Positions 19,954-39,232 of a DNA stretch of 42,698 nt are shown here, in pieces. The notes beneath the pieces are model-generated. The model was not told the DNA's origin. It worked only from the letters and a program-made list of their open reading frames with translations, and made no database searches. Every line of letters starts with the position of its first letter. Position 1 is the stretch's first letter. Location of the stretch: assembly GCF_016862555.1 (NCBI RefSeq), contig NZ_BONE01000066.1, positions 1-42,698 on the forward strand, written 5' to 3'. The DNA comes from Asanoa siamensis (GTDB taxonomy: Bacteria; Actinomycetota; Actinomycetes; Mycobacteriales; Micromonosporaceae). Made by a program: the position numbers and the translations under genes.

Positions 19954-21345
19954 TCAGTCTTCCTTCTCTTCGGTCGAGGTGGTGTCGACGACGTCCGGTG
20001 CGCCACCGCCCACGTTGGCCGGTTGCCGCTGCGCCACCCCGCGCCGGGCCCGCGGGCTCGGCGGGACCACGAGGTCCATCGGCGGCAGCGGGAAGCTGCC
20101 CTGCGGCCGCGCGTTGACCTGCTCCTGCAGCGGTCGCGGCGGCTGCTTGCGGCGGTCCGGCCAGGCCAGGGTGATCAGCAGGATGACCAGCAGGGCGCCG
20201 CCGATGATGCCCCAGCGGACCGCGTCGCTGTTCTCCTTCTGCAGCACCCGGATGCCGGCCAGCGCCAGGATCCAGACCAGGTTGATCGGCAGCAGGACGC
20301 GCCAGCCGAGCCGCATGAACTGGTCGTAGCGCAGCCGGGGCAGCGTGCCACGGAGCCAGACGAAGACGAAGACCAGCAGGATGACCTTGGCGAAGAACCA
20401 GATCAGGCCGAACCAACCCGAGTTGGCACCGTCCCAGATGCTGATCGGCCAGGGCGCCCGCCAGCCGCCGAGGAACAGCGTCGTGGCGACCGCGGAGACG
20501 GTCACCATGTTGACGTATTCGGCGAGCATGAAGAGCGCGAACTTCAGCGAGCTGTATTCGGTCATGAAGCCCGCGACGAGCTCGGACTCCGCCTCGGGCA
20601 GATCGAACGGCGCCCGGTTGGTCTCACCGACCGCGGAGATGAAGTAGATGATGAAGCTCGGCAGCAGCAGGATCGCGTACCAGCCGGGTGCGAAGAACTC
20701 GAACCCGCCGAGCGAGGCGCTGCGGTCGCTGCCGGCCTGCGCGGCGACGATCCCGCTGGTCGACATCGTGCCGGCGGTCATGAACACCGCGACGATCGAG
20801 AGACCCATGGCGACCTCGTACGAGATCATCTGGGCGCTCGACCGCAGGCCGCCGAGGAGCGGGTAGGTCGAGCCGGAGGCCCAGCCGCCGAGCACGATGC
20901 CGTAGATGCCCATCGAGGACGCGGCCAGGATCACCAGCACCGCCACCGACACGTCGGTGACCTGCAGCGGCGTCTGGTGGCCGAACATGCTCACCATCGG
21001 GCCGAACGGGATCACCGCGAGCGCCGTGACCGCGCAGATCACCGAGATGGTCGGCGCGAAGAAGTAGACGACCTTGTCGGCGCCCTTCGGCAGGATGTCT
21101 TCCTTGAAGGCCATCTTCAGGCCGTCGGCCAGCGTCTGCAGCAGGCCGAACGGGCCGACCTGGTTGGGACCGGGCCGCACCTGCATGAAGCCCACGACGC
21201 GCCGCTCGAACCAGACGCCCAGCAGCGTGGCGAGCACCGCGAAGACGAACGCGGCGACGACCTTGATGAGCGAGATCCACCAGGGATCGTGCCCGAAGTC
21301 GGCCAGCGTCGGGTCCTGCGCGAGGTAGACCGCGGGGGTCGTCAT
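19954..21345 (-). CDS. nuoH: NADH-quinone oxidoreductase subunit H
   Basis: The product has 463 residues from ATG 21345, which overlaps the nuoG stop codon (ATGA). It is the membrane subunit that forms the quinone-binding chamber together with NuoB and NuoD. Family motifs are [21 protein letters not shown], the acidic-loop region [20 protein letters not shown], and [17 protein letters not shown]. After the last helix there is a cytosolic tail of about 60 residues, rich in Pro and Arg (from about residue 405), longer than in E. coli NuoH (325 residues) and typical of actinobacteria. Confidence 0.97.
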
Positions 21346-23780
21346 CGGGCTCCTCCAGCCGAGATCGAGACGACCGCGCCGGAGGTGACGCCCAGCGTCC
21401 GCCGGGTGGTCGATCCGGGCGAGTTGGTCGGCAGCCAGACCACACCGGCCGGCATCTCCGTGATCATCGCCGGCAGCGTGACCGCGCCGCGGCCGGTGCC
21501 GACCGTGACCGCCTCGCCGTCGGCGACGCCGATCGCCTCGGCGGTCGCCTTGTCGAGCCGGACCACCGGCGGGCGGGCCGTGCCGGCCAGCTCCTGGTCG
21601 CCGTCGAGCAGGCTGCCGAGGTCGATGAGCTGGTGCCAGGTCGCCAGCACCGCCTCGCCGGTGCCGGGCTCGGCCGCCTCGGCCGGCTCGTGCAGCGGCG
21701 CGTGCGGGCGGTCGGCCCGGGTGACCGGCAGGCCGCCCAGCTCGCGGCGGACCGTGTTGACGTCGCCGGTGCCGAGCGTGACGCCGAGCGCGGCGGCGAG
21801 GGCGTCGAGCACCCGGCCGTCGTTCATCGCGTCGGTCGGCAGCACCGTCTCGAAGGTCCGCAGCCGGCCCTCCCAGTCGAGGAAGCTGCCGGACTTCTCG
21901 GCCACCGGGGCGACCGGGAAGACCACGTCGGCGCGGCGGCTCACCGCGCTGCGCCGCACCTCGAGGCTGACCAGGAACGGCACCGCGTCGAGCGCCTGCT
22001 CGGCGAGCTTCGGGTCGGTGAGGTCGGCCGGGTCGACGCCGGCGACGACCAGCGCACCGAGCCGACCGCCGGCGGCCGCCACGACCATCGCGTCGGTGTC
22101 GCGGCCCGGCGTGCTCGGGATGACCCCGGCCGCCAGGTCCCAGGCACCGGCGAGCTCGGCCCGGCCGGCCGCGTCGGAGACCAGCCGGCCACCGGGCAGC
22201 AGGTTGGGCAGGCAGCCCGCGTCGACCGCGCCGCGGTCGCCCGCGCGCCGGGGCACCCAGGCGAGCTTCGCGCCGGTGCGCTCGGCCAGCGCCGCCGCGG
22301 CGGACAGGCCGCCGGGCACCGAGGCGAGCCGCTCGCCGACGATCAGCAGCGCGCCGGGGGCCTTGAGCGCCTCGGCGACCACGTCGTGCTCGGCCAGCAC
22401 GCGCGCCTCCTCGCCCGGGATGATCCGGGCGACCTTGGCGCCGAGCTTCTCCAGGCCGCGGGTCACGTACGGCGAGAGCGCGTAGATCGGCAGCTTGCGC
22501 TTGGTGAACTGCTTGCGCAGGCGGAGGAAGAGGATCGGCGACTCCTCTTCCGGCTCCAGGCCGACGATGACGACGGCCGGTGCCGCGTCGACGTCGGCGT
22601 AGGTGACGTCGGTCGTGCCGACCACGGAGGAGGCCAGGAACTCGGTTTCCTCGGTCGACAGCGGCCGCGACCGGAAGTCGATGTCGTTGGTGTGCAGGGC
22701 GACCCGCGCGAACTTGGCGTACGCGTAGGCGTCCTCGACGGTCAGCCGGCCGCCGGTCAGCACGCCGACGCCGTGCGCGCCCTCGCGGGCCGTGCGCAGC
22801 CCGTCGGCCGCGACCTGCAGCGCTTCGCTCCAGGAGGCCGACCGCAGCTCGCCGGTCGCCGCGTCGCGGACGAGCGGGGTGGTGAGCCGGTCGGTGGCGG
22901 TCGCATAGCGGAAGCCCCAGCGACCCTTGTCGCAGTTCCACTCCTCGTTGACCGCCGCGTCGTCGCCGGCCAGCCGGCGCAGCACCTTGCCACGCCGGTG
23001 GTCGGTGCGCATGCTGCAGCCCGAGGCGCAGTGCTCACAGGTCGACGGCGAGGACACCAGGTCGAACGGCCGCGACCGGAACCGGTACTGCGCACCGGTC
23101 AGCGCGCCCACCGGGCAGATCTGCACGGTGTTGCCGGAGAAGTAGGAGTTGAAGGGAACGTCGCCCTCCGCCTCCTCGCCCGCCGCGGCGTCGTACACCT
23201 CGTCGCGGTAGACGTTGATCTCCTCGGCGCTGCTGCGGTTCATCAGGTCGATGAACTTGTCGCCCGCGATCTCCTCGGAGAACCGGGTGCAGCGCTGGCA
23301 GAGCACGCACCGCTCGCGGTCGAGCAGCACCTGCGAGGAGATGTTGATCGGCTTCGGGTATTCGCGCTTGTGCTCGTGGAACCGCGAGTCGGCCCGGCCG
23401 GTCGACATCGCCTGGTTCTGCAGCGGGCACTCGCCGCCCTTGTCGCACATCGGGCAGTCGAGCGGGTGGTTGATCAGGAGCAGCTCCATGATGCCCTCCT
23501 GCGCCTTCTTGGCGACCGGAGAGCTGAGCTGGGTCTTGACCACCATGCCGTCGGCGACCGGCTGGGTGCACGAGGCGACCGGCTTGCGCTGACCCTCGAC
23601 CTCGACCAGGCACTGCCGGCAGGCACCCGCGGGCGCCAGCAGCGGGTGGTCGCAGAACCGCGGGATCGCGATGCCGAGCTGCTCGGCAACCCGGATCAGC
23701 AGCGTGCCCTTCGGCGCGGTCACCTCGACGCCGTCGATGGTCAGGGTGACCTCGTCGGCCTTCTTGGCTACATCCGTCAT
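21342..23780 (-). CDS. nuoG: NADH-quinone oxidoreductase subunit G
   Basis: The product has 812 residues. The N-terminal iron-sulfur region has the ligands for the [2Fe-2S] cluster (C43, C54, C57, C71), the His-ligated [4Fe-4S] cluster (H105, C109, C112, C118), and a second [4Fe-4S] cluster (C158, C161, C164, C222). C248-x2-C251-x3-C255 with C283 matches the extra N7 cluster found only in some bacteria. The rest is a molybdopterin-oxidoreductase-like fold that has lost its cofactor role in complex I. The C-terminus ends in an aspartate-decarboxylase-like barrel. The ATG overlaps the nuoF stop codon by one base (TGATG). Confidence 0.97.
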
Positions 23781-34133: not shown

Positions 34134-37100
34134 GTGCGGGTGGTACACGGGGTCTGGACCGGTGCGGCGCTGGGCCTGTGGGGCGAGGCCGGGCTACCGG
34201 ACCTGCCCGGCGAGCCGGTCACGCTGACGCTCACGCTGCCGACCGTCGACGGCCGCCCCGTGCCCGCGGCCGACGAACCGCCCGCCGGAGCGACGCTGGT
34301 CGCACAGCCCGTCGAGGCCCGCCTGCTCGATCCGGCGACCGCGCTCGACCTGCTGGAGAGCCTCGACGCGACCGACGATCCGGACTGGACACCCGGTGGT
34401 GACCTGCGTTACCTCGCGGTCGTCGCCGCGTACGCCCAGGGTCTGTTCCGGCGGGGCCGGCTGCTCCCCCGGCTGGTCACCGCCGACGGGGCGCACGCCG
34501 CCCGCTGGCGCCCGGTGCTCACCGGCCGCGACGCGGTGGCCTTCCGTGACCTGGCCGCGGCGATGCCGGGCGCGGTCCGGGCACTGGGCGCACCGCCGCC
34601 CGGCGAGGTGCTGCACGGGCTGCTCGACGCGTTCACGGACGCCGCCGCCCGGCGCGCGCTGCCCGAGCGCCTGCTGCTCGGCCACCGCCCCGGCCCGAAG
34701 GCCCCGGTAGCCGACCGGTGGATGCTCGCGCTGACCGCCGCCGACCCGACCGTCACGGTGACCACCCCGCAGCGCCCGGAGCTGCTGGCGCTGCGGACGG
34801 CGCTGGACGCCTGGCACCGCGCCGCGCACCAGGCCAACGAGCCGGTCCGGGTCTCGTTCCGGCTGGTCGAGCCGCTGCCCACCACGGACCGGTGGGACCT
34901 CGAGTTCGCCCTGCAGTCGGTGGACGACCCGTCGCTGTACGTGCCGGCCGCGGTGATCTGGGCCGGGCAGCGGGTGCCGGGCCTGCCGGCGCGGCCCGAC
35001 GAGACCCTGCTGGCGGGCCTCGGCCGCGCGGTGCGGCTGTTCCCGCCGCTGGACGCGGCGCTGCGCGAGTCGCAGCCGACGGAGGCGCTGCTCGACACCG
35101 CGGCCGCGTACACCTTCCTGCGCCAGGCCGCGCCCCTGCTGCAGGCGGCGGGCTACGGCGTGCAGCTGCCGGCGTGGGCGGGCCGCAAGAGCCTGGGCCT
35201 GAAGCTCACCACAAGGTCCAAGACCGCGGCCGGCGGCAAGGCGCTGGCGGCGCAGGGCGTCGGCAAGGACCAGCTGGTCGACTTCACGATCGACCTGATG
35301 GCGGGCGACGAGGAGATCAGCGCCGCGGACCTGCACGACCTGGCCCGCCTGAAGGTGCCACTGCTGCGGGTGAAGGGCCGCTGGGTCGAGTTCGACGACC
35401 GGCAGCTCACGGCCGCGATCCGGGCGGTGGAGCAGCACCGCACGGGCGAGATGACGATCGCCGAGGTGCTGTCGACGGTCGCGGCGGGCGGCGACGAGGA
35501 CCTGCCACTGGTCGCGGTGGACGCCGACGGCTGGCTGGACGACCTGCTCTCGGGCGACGCGGACCACCGCCTCCGCCCGACCCCGACGCCGCCGTCCTTC
35601 CAGGGCACGCTACGCCCGTACCAGGAACGCGGCCTGTCCTGGTTGGACTTCCTCACGCGCCTGGGCATCGGCGGCATCCTCGCCGACGACATGGGCCTCG
35701 GCAAGTGCCTCGGCCCGGACTCGCCGGTCTTCCTCAACGGCACTCTGGTGAGTGCGGCGGACGCATGGCAGCGGTACGGCGATGAGCGCAGCGAGACCCA
35801 CGACGGCGAGGGCACATGGCGCACGCCGGCCGCACCGCTCGTGACCAATGCGCTCGACTCGGACGGCCGGATGGTGACAGCGCCGGTCACCCGGATCTAT
35901 CGCCAGCGGATCGCCGAGCCCGTACGCCAGGTGACACTTGACGACGGCAGCCGCCTCCTGCTGACTCGACGTCACCGCCTCCGCGGAATCGAGGGATGGA
36001 CCCGGGATTTCGCGGTCGGCGATGTCCTCGCCGTACCGGGCCGGCTCGAATGGACCGGAGCTCCGGTCAGTCACGACCTCGTCCGGCTGCTCGCCTGGCA
36101 GATCAGCGAAGGAGACGAGTCACGCGGCGGCACGCTCCGAATCACTCAAAAGAACCCCGCGATCCTCCAAGAGCTGGTTGATCACATACGTGCGGTCGGC
36201 GACTCGTTCCAGCTCCGCGTGAACTCGCCGCGGGTCTTCGCCGATCGCAACTGTCACGTGTTGCGGTTCGACAGCACGGCTTACGCGAGGTTCCTCGGGA
36301 GCCATGGCTATGTCTGGGGCCGGCGTTCCGCGCAGAAACGCATCCCCGACCTCGTCATGACGGGCGATCTTGCCTCGGTTCGACTCTTCCTCCGCGAGTT
36401 CTTCAGCGCGGAGGGATCGGTCAACGCCCGTATGCGGATGGTGGAGATCGCTTCAGCGTCCGGCTGGTTGATGGACCAACTCGTGACGCTGTTACGCCGC
36501 TTCGGGATCTGGATGCGGGTCACGACGAAGCACAAGGCCGCCTCGAACGGTTCTCGAACGACCCGCCCGTATCGAGTCGGTGTCATCGGCGGCGACAGCC
36601 TGCGCCGGTTCTACACGCTGGTCGGCTTCGGCGACCCCGCCAAGCACGCGAAGCTGGCGGGGATCTGCATGACCAAGGCCAATACCAATGTGGAGGGCGT
36701 CCCCGGACACGATCTGCTCGTTGCCGCCCGTACGCTGACCAACTTGCCGCAACGTCATTTCGGTGTGGGAACCGTCTATTTCGCCGGCACCCAGGAACTC
36801 TCCCGCACGAGTGCCGCAGCGGCGGTCGCCGCCCTCGACCGGATCTTGACTGGCGAGGCCGAACATGCCTACCTGGCGTTGCCCGGCAGCAAATGGACCG
36901 CGCGCACCCGCGCCGCGTATGCGGGGGTGGACCGCGCCGGACTCACCGCGATTCGCGACCGGCTGGATCGCCGGACGAACCAGGACGTCTTCTACGCGCG
37001 CGTGATCAGCGTCGAAGATCTCGACTATGACGGCTACGTCTACGACTTCGAGGTGGCGGAGCACCACAACTTCGTCGCCGGCGGAATGCTCTGCCACAAC

Positions 37101-38414
37101 ACCGCGCAGACGTTGTCTTTGTTGGTTTCCGAGCGGGAGCGCGGTGGGGAGGTCGGGCCGACGTTGCTCGTCTGTCCTATGTCGCTCGTCAGCAACTGGC
37201 GCAAGGAAGCCGAGAAGTTCGCGCCCTCCCTCGACGTCTACGTGCATCACGGTGCCACCCGGGACGTCGAGCGGCTCTCCGGCGCCGATCTCGTGATCAC
37301 CACCTACGGCACCGCCCTGCGGGATCTGGGGGCCCTGCAAGGGGTCGAGTGGGGGCGGGTCGTCTGTGACGAGGCGCAGGCCATCAAGAACTCCGGCACC
37401 CGGCAGTCGCAGGCCGTGCGGGCGATTCCGGCTCGTACGCGGCTCGCCCTGACCGGCACGCCCGTCGAGAACCATCTCGCCGAGCTGTGGTCCATCATGG
37501 ACTTCGCCAATCCCGGGCTGCTCGGCCCGGCGAAGACCTTCCGGCGCCGCTACCAGGAGCCGATCGAGGTGCGGCAGGACGACGACGCCGCGGCCGCATT
37601 GAAGCGGGCCACCGGGCCGTTCGTGTTGCGGCGGCTGAAGACCGACAAGTCGATCATCTCCGACCTGCCGGAGAAGCTGGAGATGAAGGTCTGGTGCCCG
37701 CTCACCCCCGAGCAGGCCGCGCTCTACCAGGCCGTCGTCGACGACATGCTCAACAAGATCGGGTCCAGCTCCGGCATCGAGCGCCGGGGCAACGTGCTGG
37801 CCGCGATGACCCGGCTCAAGCAGGTCTGCAACCACCCGGCCCACCTGTTGCGCGACGGGTCCAAGCTCGCCGGGCGGTCCGGCAAGCTCGCCCGGCTGCA
37901 GGAACTGGCCGAGGAGATCGTCGAGGAGGGCGACAAGGCGCTGGTCTTCACCCAGTACGCCGAGTTCGGCGCGCTGCTGCAGCCCTACCTCGCGGCCCAC
38001 CTGGACCGGCCGGTGCTCTGGCTGCACGGTGGGCTGTCCAAGCAGCGCCGGGACGAGCTGGTCACCCGCTTCCAGACCGACGCCGAGCCGATGATCTTCC
38101 TGTTGTCGCTCAAGGCGGCCGGCACCGGGCTCAACCTGACGGCCGCCAACCATGTCATCCACGTCGACCGGTGGTGGAACCCGGCGGTGGAGGACCAGGC
38201 CACCGACCGCGCGTACCGGATCGGGCAGGCCCGCAACGTGCAGGTCCGCAAGTTCATCTGCACCGGCACCATCGAGGAGCGGGTCGACGAGATGATCGAG
38301 CGGAAGAAGGCGCTGGCCGACCGGGTCGTGGGCACCGGCGAGGAGTGGCTGACGGAGCTGTCCACCGACGAGTTGCGCGACCTGTTCGCGCTCGACCCGA
38401 AGGCGGTGGGCTGA
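34134..38414 (+). CDS. HelZ-like SNF2 helicase precursor containing an intein
   Basis: The precursor has 1426 residues, or 961 after removal of a 465-residue intein (residues 525-989). Residues 1 to about 480 are the SNF2-associated N-terminal region typical of bacterial SNF2 proteins (VDFTIDLMAGDEEISAADLH; LRPYQERGLSWLDFLTRLG). The ATPase core has Walker A (ADDMGLGK joined to T990AQTL after splicing), the DEAQ box near residue 1079, ALTGTPVENHL near 1104, and the C-terminal helicase domain with GTGLNLTAANHVIHVDRWWN and DRAYRIGQ near 1358. The GTG start at 34134 gives the VVHGVWTG N-terminus common in relatives. It resembles mycobacterial HelZ. Without splicing the ATP site would be broken. 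Its stop overlaps the start of the SWIM gene (TGATG). Confidence 0.93.
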   Translation: MRVVHGVWTGAALGLWGEAGLPDLPGEPVTLTLTLPTVDGRPVPAADEPPAGATLVAQPVEARLLDPATALDLLESLDATDDPDWTPGGDLRYLAVVAAYAQGLFRRGRLLPRLVTADGAHAARWRPVLTGRDAVAFRDLAAAMPGAVRALGAPPPGEVLHGLLDAFTDAAARRALPERLLLGHRPGPKAPVADRWMLALTAADPTVTVTTPQRPELLALRTALDAWHRAAHQANEPVRVSFRLVEPLPTTDRWDLEFALQSVDDPSLYVPAAVIWAGQRVPGLPARPDETLLAGLGRAVRLFPPLDAALRESQPTEALLDTAAAYTFLRQAAPLLQAAGYGVQLPAWAGRKSLGLKLTTRSKTAAGGKALAAQGVGKDQLVDFTIDLMAGDEEISAADLHDLARLKVPLLRVKGRWVEFDDRQLTAAIRAVEQHRTGEMTIAEVLSTVAAGGDEDLPLVAVDADGWLDDLLSGDADHRLRPTPTPPSFQGTLRPYQERGLSWLDFLTRLGIGGILADDMGLGKCLGPDSPVFLNGTLVSAADAWQRYGDERSETHDGEGTWRTPAAPLVTNALDSDGRMVTAPVTRIYRQRIAEPVRQVTLDDGSRLLLTRRHRLRGIEGWTRDFAVGDVLAVPGRLEWTGAPVSHDLVRLLAWQISEGDESRGGTLRITQKNPAILQELVDHIRAVGDSFQLRVNSPRVFADRNCHVLRFDSTAYARFLGSHGYVWGRRSAQKRIPDLVMTGDLASVRLFLREFFSAEGSVNARMRMVEIASASGWLMDQLVTLLRRFGIWMRVTTKHKAASNGSRTTRPYRVGVIGGDSLRRFYTLVGFGDPAKHAKLAGICMTKANTNVEGVPGHDLLVAARTLTNLPQRHFGVGTVYFAGTQELSRTSAAAAVAALDRILTGEAEHAYLALPGSKWTARTRAAYAGVDRAGLTAIRDRLDRRTNQDVFYARVISVEDLDYDGYVYDFEVAEHHNFVAGGMLCHNTAQTLSLLVSERERGGEVGPTLLVCPMSLVSNWRKEAEKFAPSLDVYVHHGATRDVERLSGADLVITTYGTALRDLGALQGVEWGRVVCDEAQAIKNSGTRQSQAVRAIPARTRLALTGTPVENHLAELWSIMDFANPGLLGPAKTFRRRYQEPIEVRQDDDAAAALKRATGPFVLRRLKTDKSIISDLPEKLEMKVWCPLTPEQAALYQAVVDDMLNKIGSSSGIERRGNVLAAMTRLKQVCNHPAHLLRDGSKLAGRSGKLARLQELAEEIVEEGDKALVFTQYAEFGALLQPYLAAHLDRPVLWLHGGLSKQRRDELVTRFQTDAEPMIFLLSLKAAGTGLNLTAANHVIHVDRWWNPAVEDQATDRAYRIGQARNVQVRKFICTGTIEERVDEMIERKKALADRVVGTGEEWLTELSTDELRDLFALDPKAVG
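35706..37100 (+). mobile_element. Intein with LAGLIDADG-type endonuclease core in the helicase Walker A loop
   Basis: The in-frame insert encodes 465 residues. It starts with Cys (CLGPDSPVFLNG, block A) and ends with LCHN, followed by extein Thr. The splicing block B shows T-x2-H in LLLTRRHRLRG. Blocks F and G are VYDFEVAEHHNFVAGGMLCHN-like, with the penultimate His and terminal Asn. The middle contains two LAGLIDADG-like segments, LLAWQISEGD and FLREFFSAEGS, both with an acidic residue at the catalytic position. Codons here are more A/T-rich than in the flanking exteins. The site, between GLGK and T of Walker A, is a common type of intein target. Splicing and nuclease activity are predicted, not shown. 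Confidence 0.93.
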
Positions 38415-39232
38415 TGCCGGTGGGTCCCGACGGCTGGTTCGAGGGCGGCAAGGCGATCAAGGTCGAGGGCGGCATCAAGGCCCGCTCGCGACGCGGCCGG
38501 ATCGGCGAGGAGTGGTGGTCGCGCCGGTTCATCGACATCCTCGAGGGCATCTGCGACAAGGGCCGCCTGGAGCGCGGCCGCCGCTACGCCCGGGCCGGCC
38601 AGGTGCTCGACCTCGACCTCGAGCCCGGCTCGGTGCACTCGCGGGTCCAGGGCTCGCGCACCGCGCCCTATCAGGTCAAGATCACCATCCCGGTGTACGA
38701 CGACGCGGCCTGGCAACGGGTCGAGGAGGCCCTCGCACACCAGGCGGTGTTCAGGGCCAAGCTGCTCGCCGGCGAGATGCCGATCGAGATCGTCGCGGTC
38801 TTCGACGACCTCGGCCTGCCGCTGTTCCCCACCGACCTGGACATGAGCTGCACCTGCCCGGACTGGGGCTTCCCGTGCAAGCACCTCTCCGCGGTGCTCT
38901 ACCTGCTCGCGGAGGCGTTCGACGAGGACCCGTTCCTGGTGCTCGCCTGGCGGGGCCGGGCGCGCGACGAGCTCCTGGGCGCGCTGCGCGGCCCGGCCGC
39001 CGACGAGCCTCCGGCCGACCCGCTGGAGGTGCCGGACCGGCCGCTGGCCGTGACCGACTTCTACGCGCCCGCCCAGTCGCTGGCGAAGCTCAAGGAGCTG
39101 CCCGGCGGTGCGGCCGCGCCACCGGAGCTGCTGCTGCGGGTGCTCGACCCGCCGCCGGTCAAGGTGCGGCACATCCCGCTGGTCGACCTGCTCCGCCCCG
39201 TCTATCGAAGCCTGAACGATCAGCCGTCGTAG
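38414..39232 (+). CDS. SWIM zinc-finger protein coupled to the SNF2 helicase
   Basis: The product has 272 residues. The SWIM motif is C146-x-C148-x6-C155-x-H157 (CTCPDWGFPCKH), a zinc site that binds DNA or protein. The N-terminal part is basic and aromatic (ARSRRGRIGEEWWSRRFIDIL), with a beta-rich region before the finger. The C-terminal 100 residues are Pro/Ala-rich and helical. The ATG overlaps the helicase stop codon (TGATG), so the two are translationally coupled and probably act together. SWIM proteins next to SNF2 helicases occur in other actinobacteria. The biochemical role is not known; nucleic-acid repair or remodelling is an inference. The 3' end overlaps that of paaE. Confidence 0.88.
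   Translation: MPVGPDGWFEGGKAIKVEGGIKARSRRGRIGEEWWSRRFIDILEGICDKGRLERGRRYARAGQVLDLDLEPGSVHSRVQGSRTAPYQVKITIPVYDDAAWQRVEEALAHQAVFRAKLLAGEMPIEIVAVFDDLGLPLFPTDLDMSCTCPDWGFPCKHLSAVLYLLAEAFDEDPFLVLAWRGRARDELLGALRGPAADEPPADPLEVPDRPLAVTDFYAPAQSLAKLKELPGGAAAPPELLLRVLDPPPVKVRHIPLVDLLRPVYRSLNDQPS

Follow-up and report, generated by a model that had tools for sequence, protein, structure and literature searches.

Introduction

In its passages on TerL1-a of mycobacteriophages, PMC5050341 describes insertion between the invariant lysine and threonine of the Walker A motif as a 'classic' P-loop insertion, and an excerpt of PMC10643990 places the MCM-a and VMA-b inteins directly after the Walker A lysine. 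All three occupy the same place in the nucleotide-binding loop as the element described here, with a +1 residue that serves both splicing and the ATPase, but in different host proteins. According to sections of PMC6195587, the P-loop serine of mycobacterial DnaB is both a splice residue and a Mg ligand, and a P-loop intein of RadA disrupts ATPase function. DnaBi1 likewise lies in a helicase P-loop and has a Mg-coordinating +1 residue, but the same sections describe it as a class 3 mini-intein that has no nuclease. Rad54/SWI-SNF2 proteins are among the intein hosts listed in an extract of PMC5874633, and splicing of the Deinococcus radiodurans Snf2 intein has been shown, as stated in parts of PMC3196547 and PMC11219805. 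The latter shares an SNF2-family host with our element but is given there as class 3, whereas ours has Cys1 and no block F cysteine.

We have analyzed an in-frame insert in a helicase gene of Asanoa siamensis, within a stretch of 42,698 nucleotides (contig NZ_BONE01000066.1) that we call the window. The kind is well known, given that the P-loop lysine/threonine site is in print and that SNF2 inteins have been described; the Asanoa intein is a new, clear but ordinary example. As a class 1 P-loop intein, it would use the Walker A threonine for both jobs. A literature search combining intein with SNF2, Walker A, Actinoplanes or Micromonospora gave no description of it in titles or the beginnings of abstracts, a weak result with subscription papers mostly outside its scope. 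The locus would offer a well-resolved case for the long-term survival of a functional homing endonuclease, with one site that is filled in some sister species and empty in others, two more patchy sites in dnaB, and damaged or nuclease-free forms in wider relatives.

A helicase gene interrupted in its Walker A loop

The gene lies at positions 34134..38414 of the window on the forward strand, and encodes a precursor of 1426 amino acids from a GTG start. Pfam profiles match SNF2-rel_dom (E = 1.4e-61), DUF3670 (2.5e-33) and Helicase_C (1.9e-20). The N-extein (34134..35705, forward, 524 aa) ends in the GLGK of Walker A, and the C-extein (37101..38414, forward, 437 aa and the stop codon) begins with the Walker A threonine, which is also the +1 splice residue. 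Between them, at ADDMGLGK/TAQTLSLL, the loop is interrupted with the reading frame kept by an insert of 465 residues (35706..37100, forward; precursor residues 525-989), exactly where the first-pass annotation of this DNA had put it. Without the insert the helicase has 961 aa.

The whole protein has a single match in its own genome. The closest equivalog in NCBIfam, NF058637 (SCO1167/SCO6262 family helicase), scores 710.8 bits with the intein and 745.9 bits for the intein-free orthologue of the congener G003, below its cut-off of 1200, and NF058636 (sll1366 family intein-prone helicase) scores 271.4 and 278.5 bits, below its cut-off of 550. We therefore name the host only as a DUF3670/SNF2 helicase; HelZ (Rv2101) may be a name that applies to it. 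Among named helicases, those of Amorphoplanes (79%) and Paractinoplanes (78%) are nearest in best-segment identity.

The insert as a class 1 intein with a LAGLIDADG endonuclease

Every residue associated with splicing is there: C1, T87-R-R-H90 as block B, H464-N465 and Thr+1, together with a VYDFEV sequence. The initial cysteine, the T-x2-H of block B and the final His-Asn that had been reported from the bare sequence are thus accounted for. The N-terminal splicing region (35706..36050, forward; about residues 1-115, the boundary being approximate) contains C1 and block B. The C-terminal splicing region (36966..37100, forward) contains VYDFEVAEHHNFVAGG and MLCHN, and is matched at protein residues 968-990 by TIGR01443 (intein_Cterm) at 20 bits (cut-off 15.6). 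Searched alone in Pfam, the insert matches Intein_splicing with E = 2.8e-18 (PF14890, 66.6 bits, cut-off 35.8) and, over residues 225-307, LAGLIDADG_3 with E = 9.4e-13, over its cut-off; Hom_end falls under its own. Since these profiles match and the helicase is uninterrupted in three of six congeneric genomes, the insert is not a product of chance.

The endonuclease core (36063..36635, forward; about residues 120-310, again with approximate boundaries) has two motif helices of the LAGLIDADG (DOD) type, LLAWQISEG and LFLREFFSAEG, each with an acid (E135 and E236), and the sequence KRIPD. We take these to be blocks C, E and D respectively. The earlier reading of two LAGLIDADG-like motifs that keep their acids is borne out by this. 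The usual acid of block C is aspartate, and the glutamate found here counts against a live nuclease. The core is followed by an accessory region (36636..36965, forward; about residues 311-420) that is helical in an AlphaFold model; that it binds DNA is a guess.

The model of the insert, built from five sequences, has a mean pLDDT of 82 and a pTM of 0.68. Its five best PDB matches in Foldseek, with E values from 3e-23, are the TliVMA and PhoVMA inteins (7qss, 7qsu and 7qst), PI-PfuI (1dq3) and PI-PkoII (2cw7), from hosts that we take to be archaeal. Identity in these structural matches is 15-18%. All five were also found by profile, and in the profile alignment E135 and E236 line up with the aspartates of the TliVMA motifs ADG and CDG. 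The nuclease core resembles that of I-DmoI (TMt about 0.7), which is intron-encoded (title of 1b24) and no intein. Whole-insert matches have low query-length TM-scores (0.28-0.37), which leaves it uncertain how the domains are placed relative to one another.

The insert thus interrupts a conserved host motif, is absent from orthologues, and has C1, TRRH, HN and T+1 in a HINT domain recognized by both profile and fold. We assign it to class 1 because it starts with Cys1 and has no cysteine across residues 444-459, the block F stretch in which we take the column of block F4 to lie; D447 is found in 13 of 13 aligned inteins. A class 3 intein would instead lack a nucleophile at position 1 and have a Trp-Cys-Thr triplet with its cysteine in block F. 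With a probability of about 90%, we regard the insert as a class 1 intein of full length whose LAGLIDADG homing endonuclease is apparently intact.

Occupied and empty sites

The helicase is present in all six genomes of the genus. The intein is found in three (A. siamensis itself, G000, with G002 and G005), while G001, G003 and G004 have an empty site reading GLGKTAQTLSLL; the comparison of close relatives that the first-pass annotation proposed therefore does separate presence from absence. Of 354 genomes in the family, 341 have a helicase match at E 1e-100, a count that may include paralogues, and six have an intein match at 1e-20, a threshold at which mini-inteins could be missed. An even draw of 394 genomes from the class gave two intein matches, one being A. 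siamensis and the other G369. Among the best 80 of at least 586 helicase relatives in genome_contigs, a same-site insert is present in four loci (Spongiactinospora, Actinoallomurus iriomotensis, Actinomadura roseirufa and Actinomadura sp. DC4) and the site is uninterrupted in 75, with GLGK followed by T or S in 74 and GMGKS in L089; L038 begins past the insertion site.

For a tree we picked 42 helicases by hand and left out one with an empty site (L044), in which the second motif is missing. On the resulting tree of 41, including 12 carriers, the presence of the intein needs at least 10 changes, and a carrier is paired with an empty site both for G000 and G003 and for G002 and G004. The suggestion that the element may still be mobile fits this patchy distribution. 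In the carrier G320 (locus L106) the reading frame of the C-extein is broken, through a sequencing error or because the gene is a pseudogene; the frame of its intein is open.

The dnaB gene of A. siamensis (L122:4156-8367, minus strand, G000:C3) carries two inteins of its own. One, of 508 aa, lies in the P-loop (GLGK/S), starts with alanine, is a candidate for class 3 or 2, and occurs within the genus in G000 and G002. The second, of 427 aa, lies at DLRESG/S, starts with cysteine and occurs in G000, G001 and G005. Neither is present in G003 or G004.

States of the same-site inteins

Thirteen same-site inteins were aligned. C1 and HN are found in all, block B T-x2-H in 12 (DC4 has serine for threonine) and both nuclease acids, together with block D, in 10, the A. 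siamensis intein among them. In the 339-aa intein of G080 block C ends after its acid and AAA replaces AEG, and AGA replaces AEG in L115, a locus discussed below. The accessory region is partly deleted in G005 and G320, with the nuclease core retained, and the Actinomadura DC4 element is a mini-intein of 169 aa that has no nuclease. Such a spread of full-length, damaged and nuclease-free states is what the homing-cycle model leads one to expect, as laid out in a portion of PMC1654191.

Cys463 (window 37092-37094), just before the terminal His-Asn, is kept in 12 of the 13; in the Spongiactinospora intein position 463 is alanine. C1 and C463 are the sole cysteines of the DC4 mini-intein.

Selection, divergence and age

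We calculated dN/dS by the Nei-Gojobori method for the three pairs among G000, G002 and G005, in which the silent sites of the intein are near saturation. The values are 0.14, 0.18 and 0.18 for the nuclease core, 0.22, 0.25 and 0.17 for the N-terminal splicing part, and 0.21-0.34 for the C-terminal splicing part. These ratios point to purifying selection on the nuclease core.

The inteins of these congeners are nevertheless more diverged than their hosts. Amino acid identity is 71-77% for the inteins and 86-91% for the exteins. At fourfold sites the composition-corrected distance is 1.1-1.6 in the inteins and 0.54-0.60 in the exteins, about a two-fold difference in silent divergence, and the bootstrap intervals are disjoint; for an mqnC-like neighbour the distance is 0.26-0.32. 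The same excess of silent divergence is seen in the DnaB inteins of the genus. We looked among G000, G002 and G005 for the low intein silent divergence that recent homing would leave, and for co-converted flanks, and found neither. The higher divergence indicates that the three inteins have not been exchanged recently, and the absence of visible recent exchange counts against the mobility part of our explanation. The congeneric inteins are old alleles that were kept, or separate arrivals from diverged donors, or have a faster silent rate with weaker codon bias, which could itself raise the silent divergence.

In trees built from 11 carriers, without DC4 and L115, three well-supported intein groups are also groups of the extein tree, namely G000/G002/G005, G132/G320 and Actinoallomurus/Actinomadura; elsewhere the intein tree is poorly supported or unresolved. 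Within the genus the model-corrected ratio of intein to extein distance is 2.2-3.1. When the G000 group is compared with G132/G320 the ratio is about 0.7, the intein being less diverged there than the helicase that holds it. The extein distances of G320 are inflated by its out-of-frame C-extein tail, but G132 is free of this fault and gives the same ratio. The low ratio between deep groups hints at transfer of the intein between helicase clades, though saturation may be another cause.

These trees also bear on the possibility that the intein splices but its endonuclease no longer works, the element being inherited, sometimes lost with the gene, and never homing. The agreement of intein groups with host-gene groups would be expected of it, as would the genus without a sign of recent exchange and the damage seen in relatives, i.e., block C and AAA in G080 and the accessory region in G005 and G320. 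It sits less well with the acids and block D kept in A. siamensis, with the acids kept in most of the aligned inteins, and with core dN/dS values set against those of the N-terminal splicing part. We consider this quite possible, but on the whole doubtful. For the reading that we prefer, in which the endonuclease is intact, we propose that in the lineage of A. siamensis the intein is an old element, repeatedly lost or regained, and not a newcomer.

Splicing, homing and possible regulation

In a class 1 mechanism, Cys1 would begin the N-terminal acyl transfer, aided by T87 and H90, the Walker A threonine would act as the +1 nucleophile, and Asn465 would cyclise with the assistance of His464. 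The joined exteins would form the 961-aa helicase with its GLGKT loop restored. In the unspliced precursor the loop is split, so no ATP hydrolysis is expected and the protein is probably inactive until spliced. It is accordingly a reasonable suggestion that splicing may control helicase activity, as was proposed in the first-pass annotation. From the nuclease core and the patchy distribution we infer homing, in which the nuclease would cleave uninterrupted helicase alleles at the corresponding codons and repair would then insert a copy of the intein.

Splicing might go further and switch the helicase in response to redox state or stress through Cys463, with the intein kept for that purpose. 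The near-constancy of Cys463 and the cysteine pair of DC4 are consistent with such a role, and the mycobacterial P-loop DnaB intein is described as an oxidative-stress sensor in a section of PMC6195587. The alanine of Spongiactinospora and the three congeners that live without the intein argue against it, and we hold it to be unlikely. Still bolder, the genus might contain a homing system that is still running, with empty, occupied and partly decayed alleles at the helicase site and the two dnaB sites, joined to C1/C463 redox-gated splicing, so that the element would be selfish and regulatory at once; this combination seems to us distinctly improbable.

Composition and origin

The insert's codons are more A/T-rich than those of its host, as had been reported, with a GC3 of 0.817 compared with 0.958 and 0.950 in the exteins. 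This might suggest that the intein came in recently from a distant donor richer in A/T, and the first-pass annotation took it as pointing to a recent arrival. That reading is not supported. Intein GC3 is below that of both exteins in eight of nine carriers measured (N-exteins being taken from the upstream stop codon), and equally low values occur in 26 of 119 open reading frames taken from the window and from ten stretches of the A. siamensis genome, a rough count that probably includes some spurious frames. The silent divergence and the concordant groups described above weigh against it too. The nearest relatives found are the congeners' inteins (77 and 71%), and phages, plasmids and a scan of IMG/VR gave no closer match. 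A recent arrival is thus very improbable.

A viral origin was considered and rejected. The three best of eight IMG/VR hits (L113, L114 and L115) are contigs of 4-5 kb with the same type of helicase; they are probably not viral and look like bacterial chromosome. Each of these helicases has a same-site intein, that of L115 lying in a longer SNF2 protein and having a damaged nuclease. A match at G000:C17 (E = 0.0058) was judged to be chance. An uncultured 485-kb phage record (LR745208.1:298940-300187) has 28% identity over 88% of the intein query.

That the intein is dead, with no splicing and the helicase lost, is scarcely credible, given that every splice residue is retained and that the exteins are intact and constrained (dN 0.025-0.130, dS 0.31-0.58 in the three congeneric carriers).

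Neighbouring genes

The intein-free orthologue matches ZorD, DpdE and further SNF2-type defence models in PADLOC (best E = 1.9e-140). A reading of the helicase as a defence gene was dropped, with 307 bits for NCBIfam ZorD against a cut-off of 1500 and no support from the neighbours; the PADLOC matches are taken as shared SNF2 homology. The downstream gene (38414..39232, forward, 272 aa) has a start that overlaps the helicase stop codon (TGATG). A Pfam search of its product at 1e-5 gave no match; by eye, the protein has a SWIM-like CxC...CxH motif. Elsewhere in the window, positions 21342-23780 hold a NuoG-like gene (NADH-quinone oxidoreductase), recognized by its Pfam domains.
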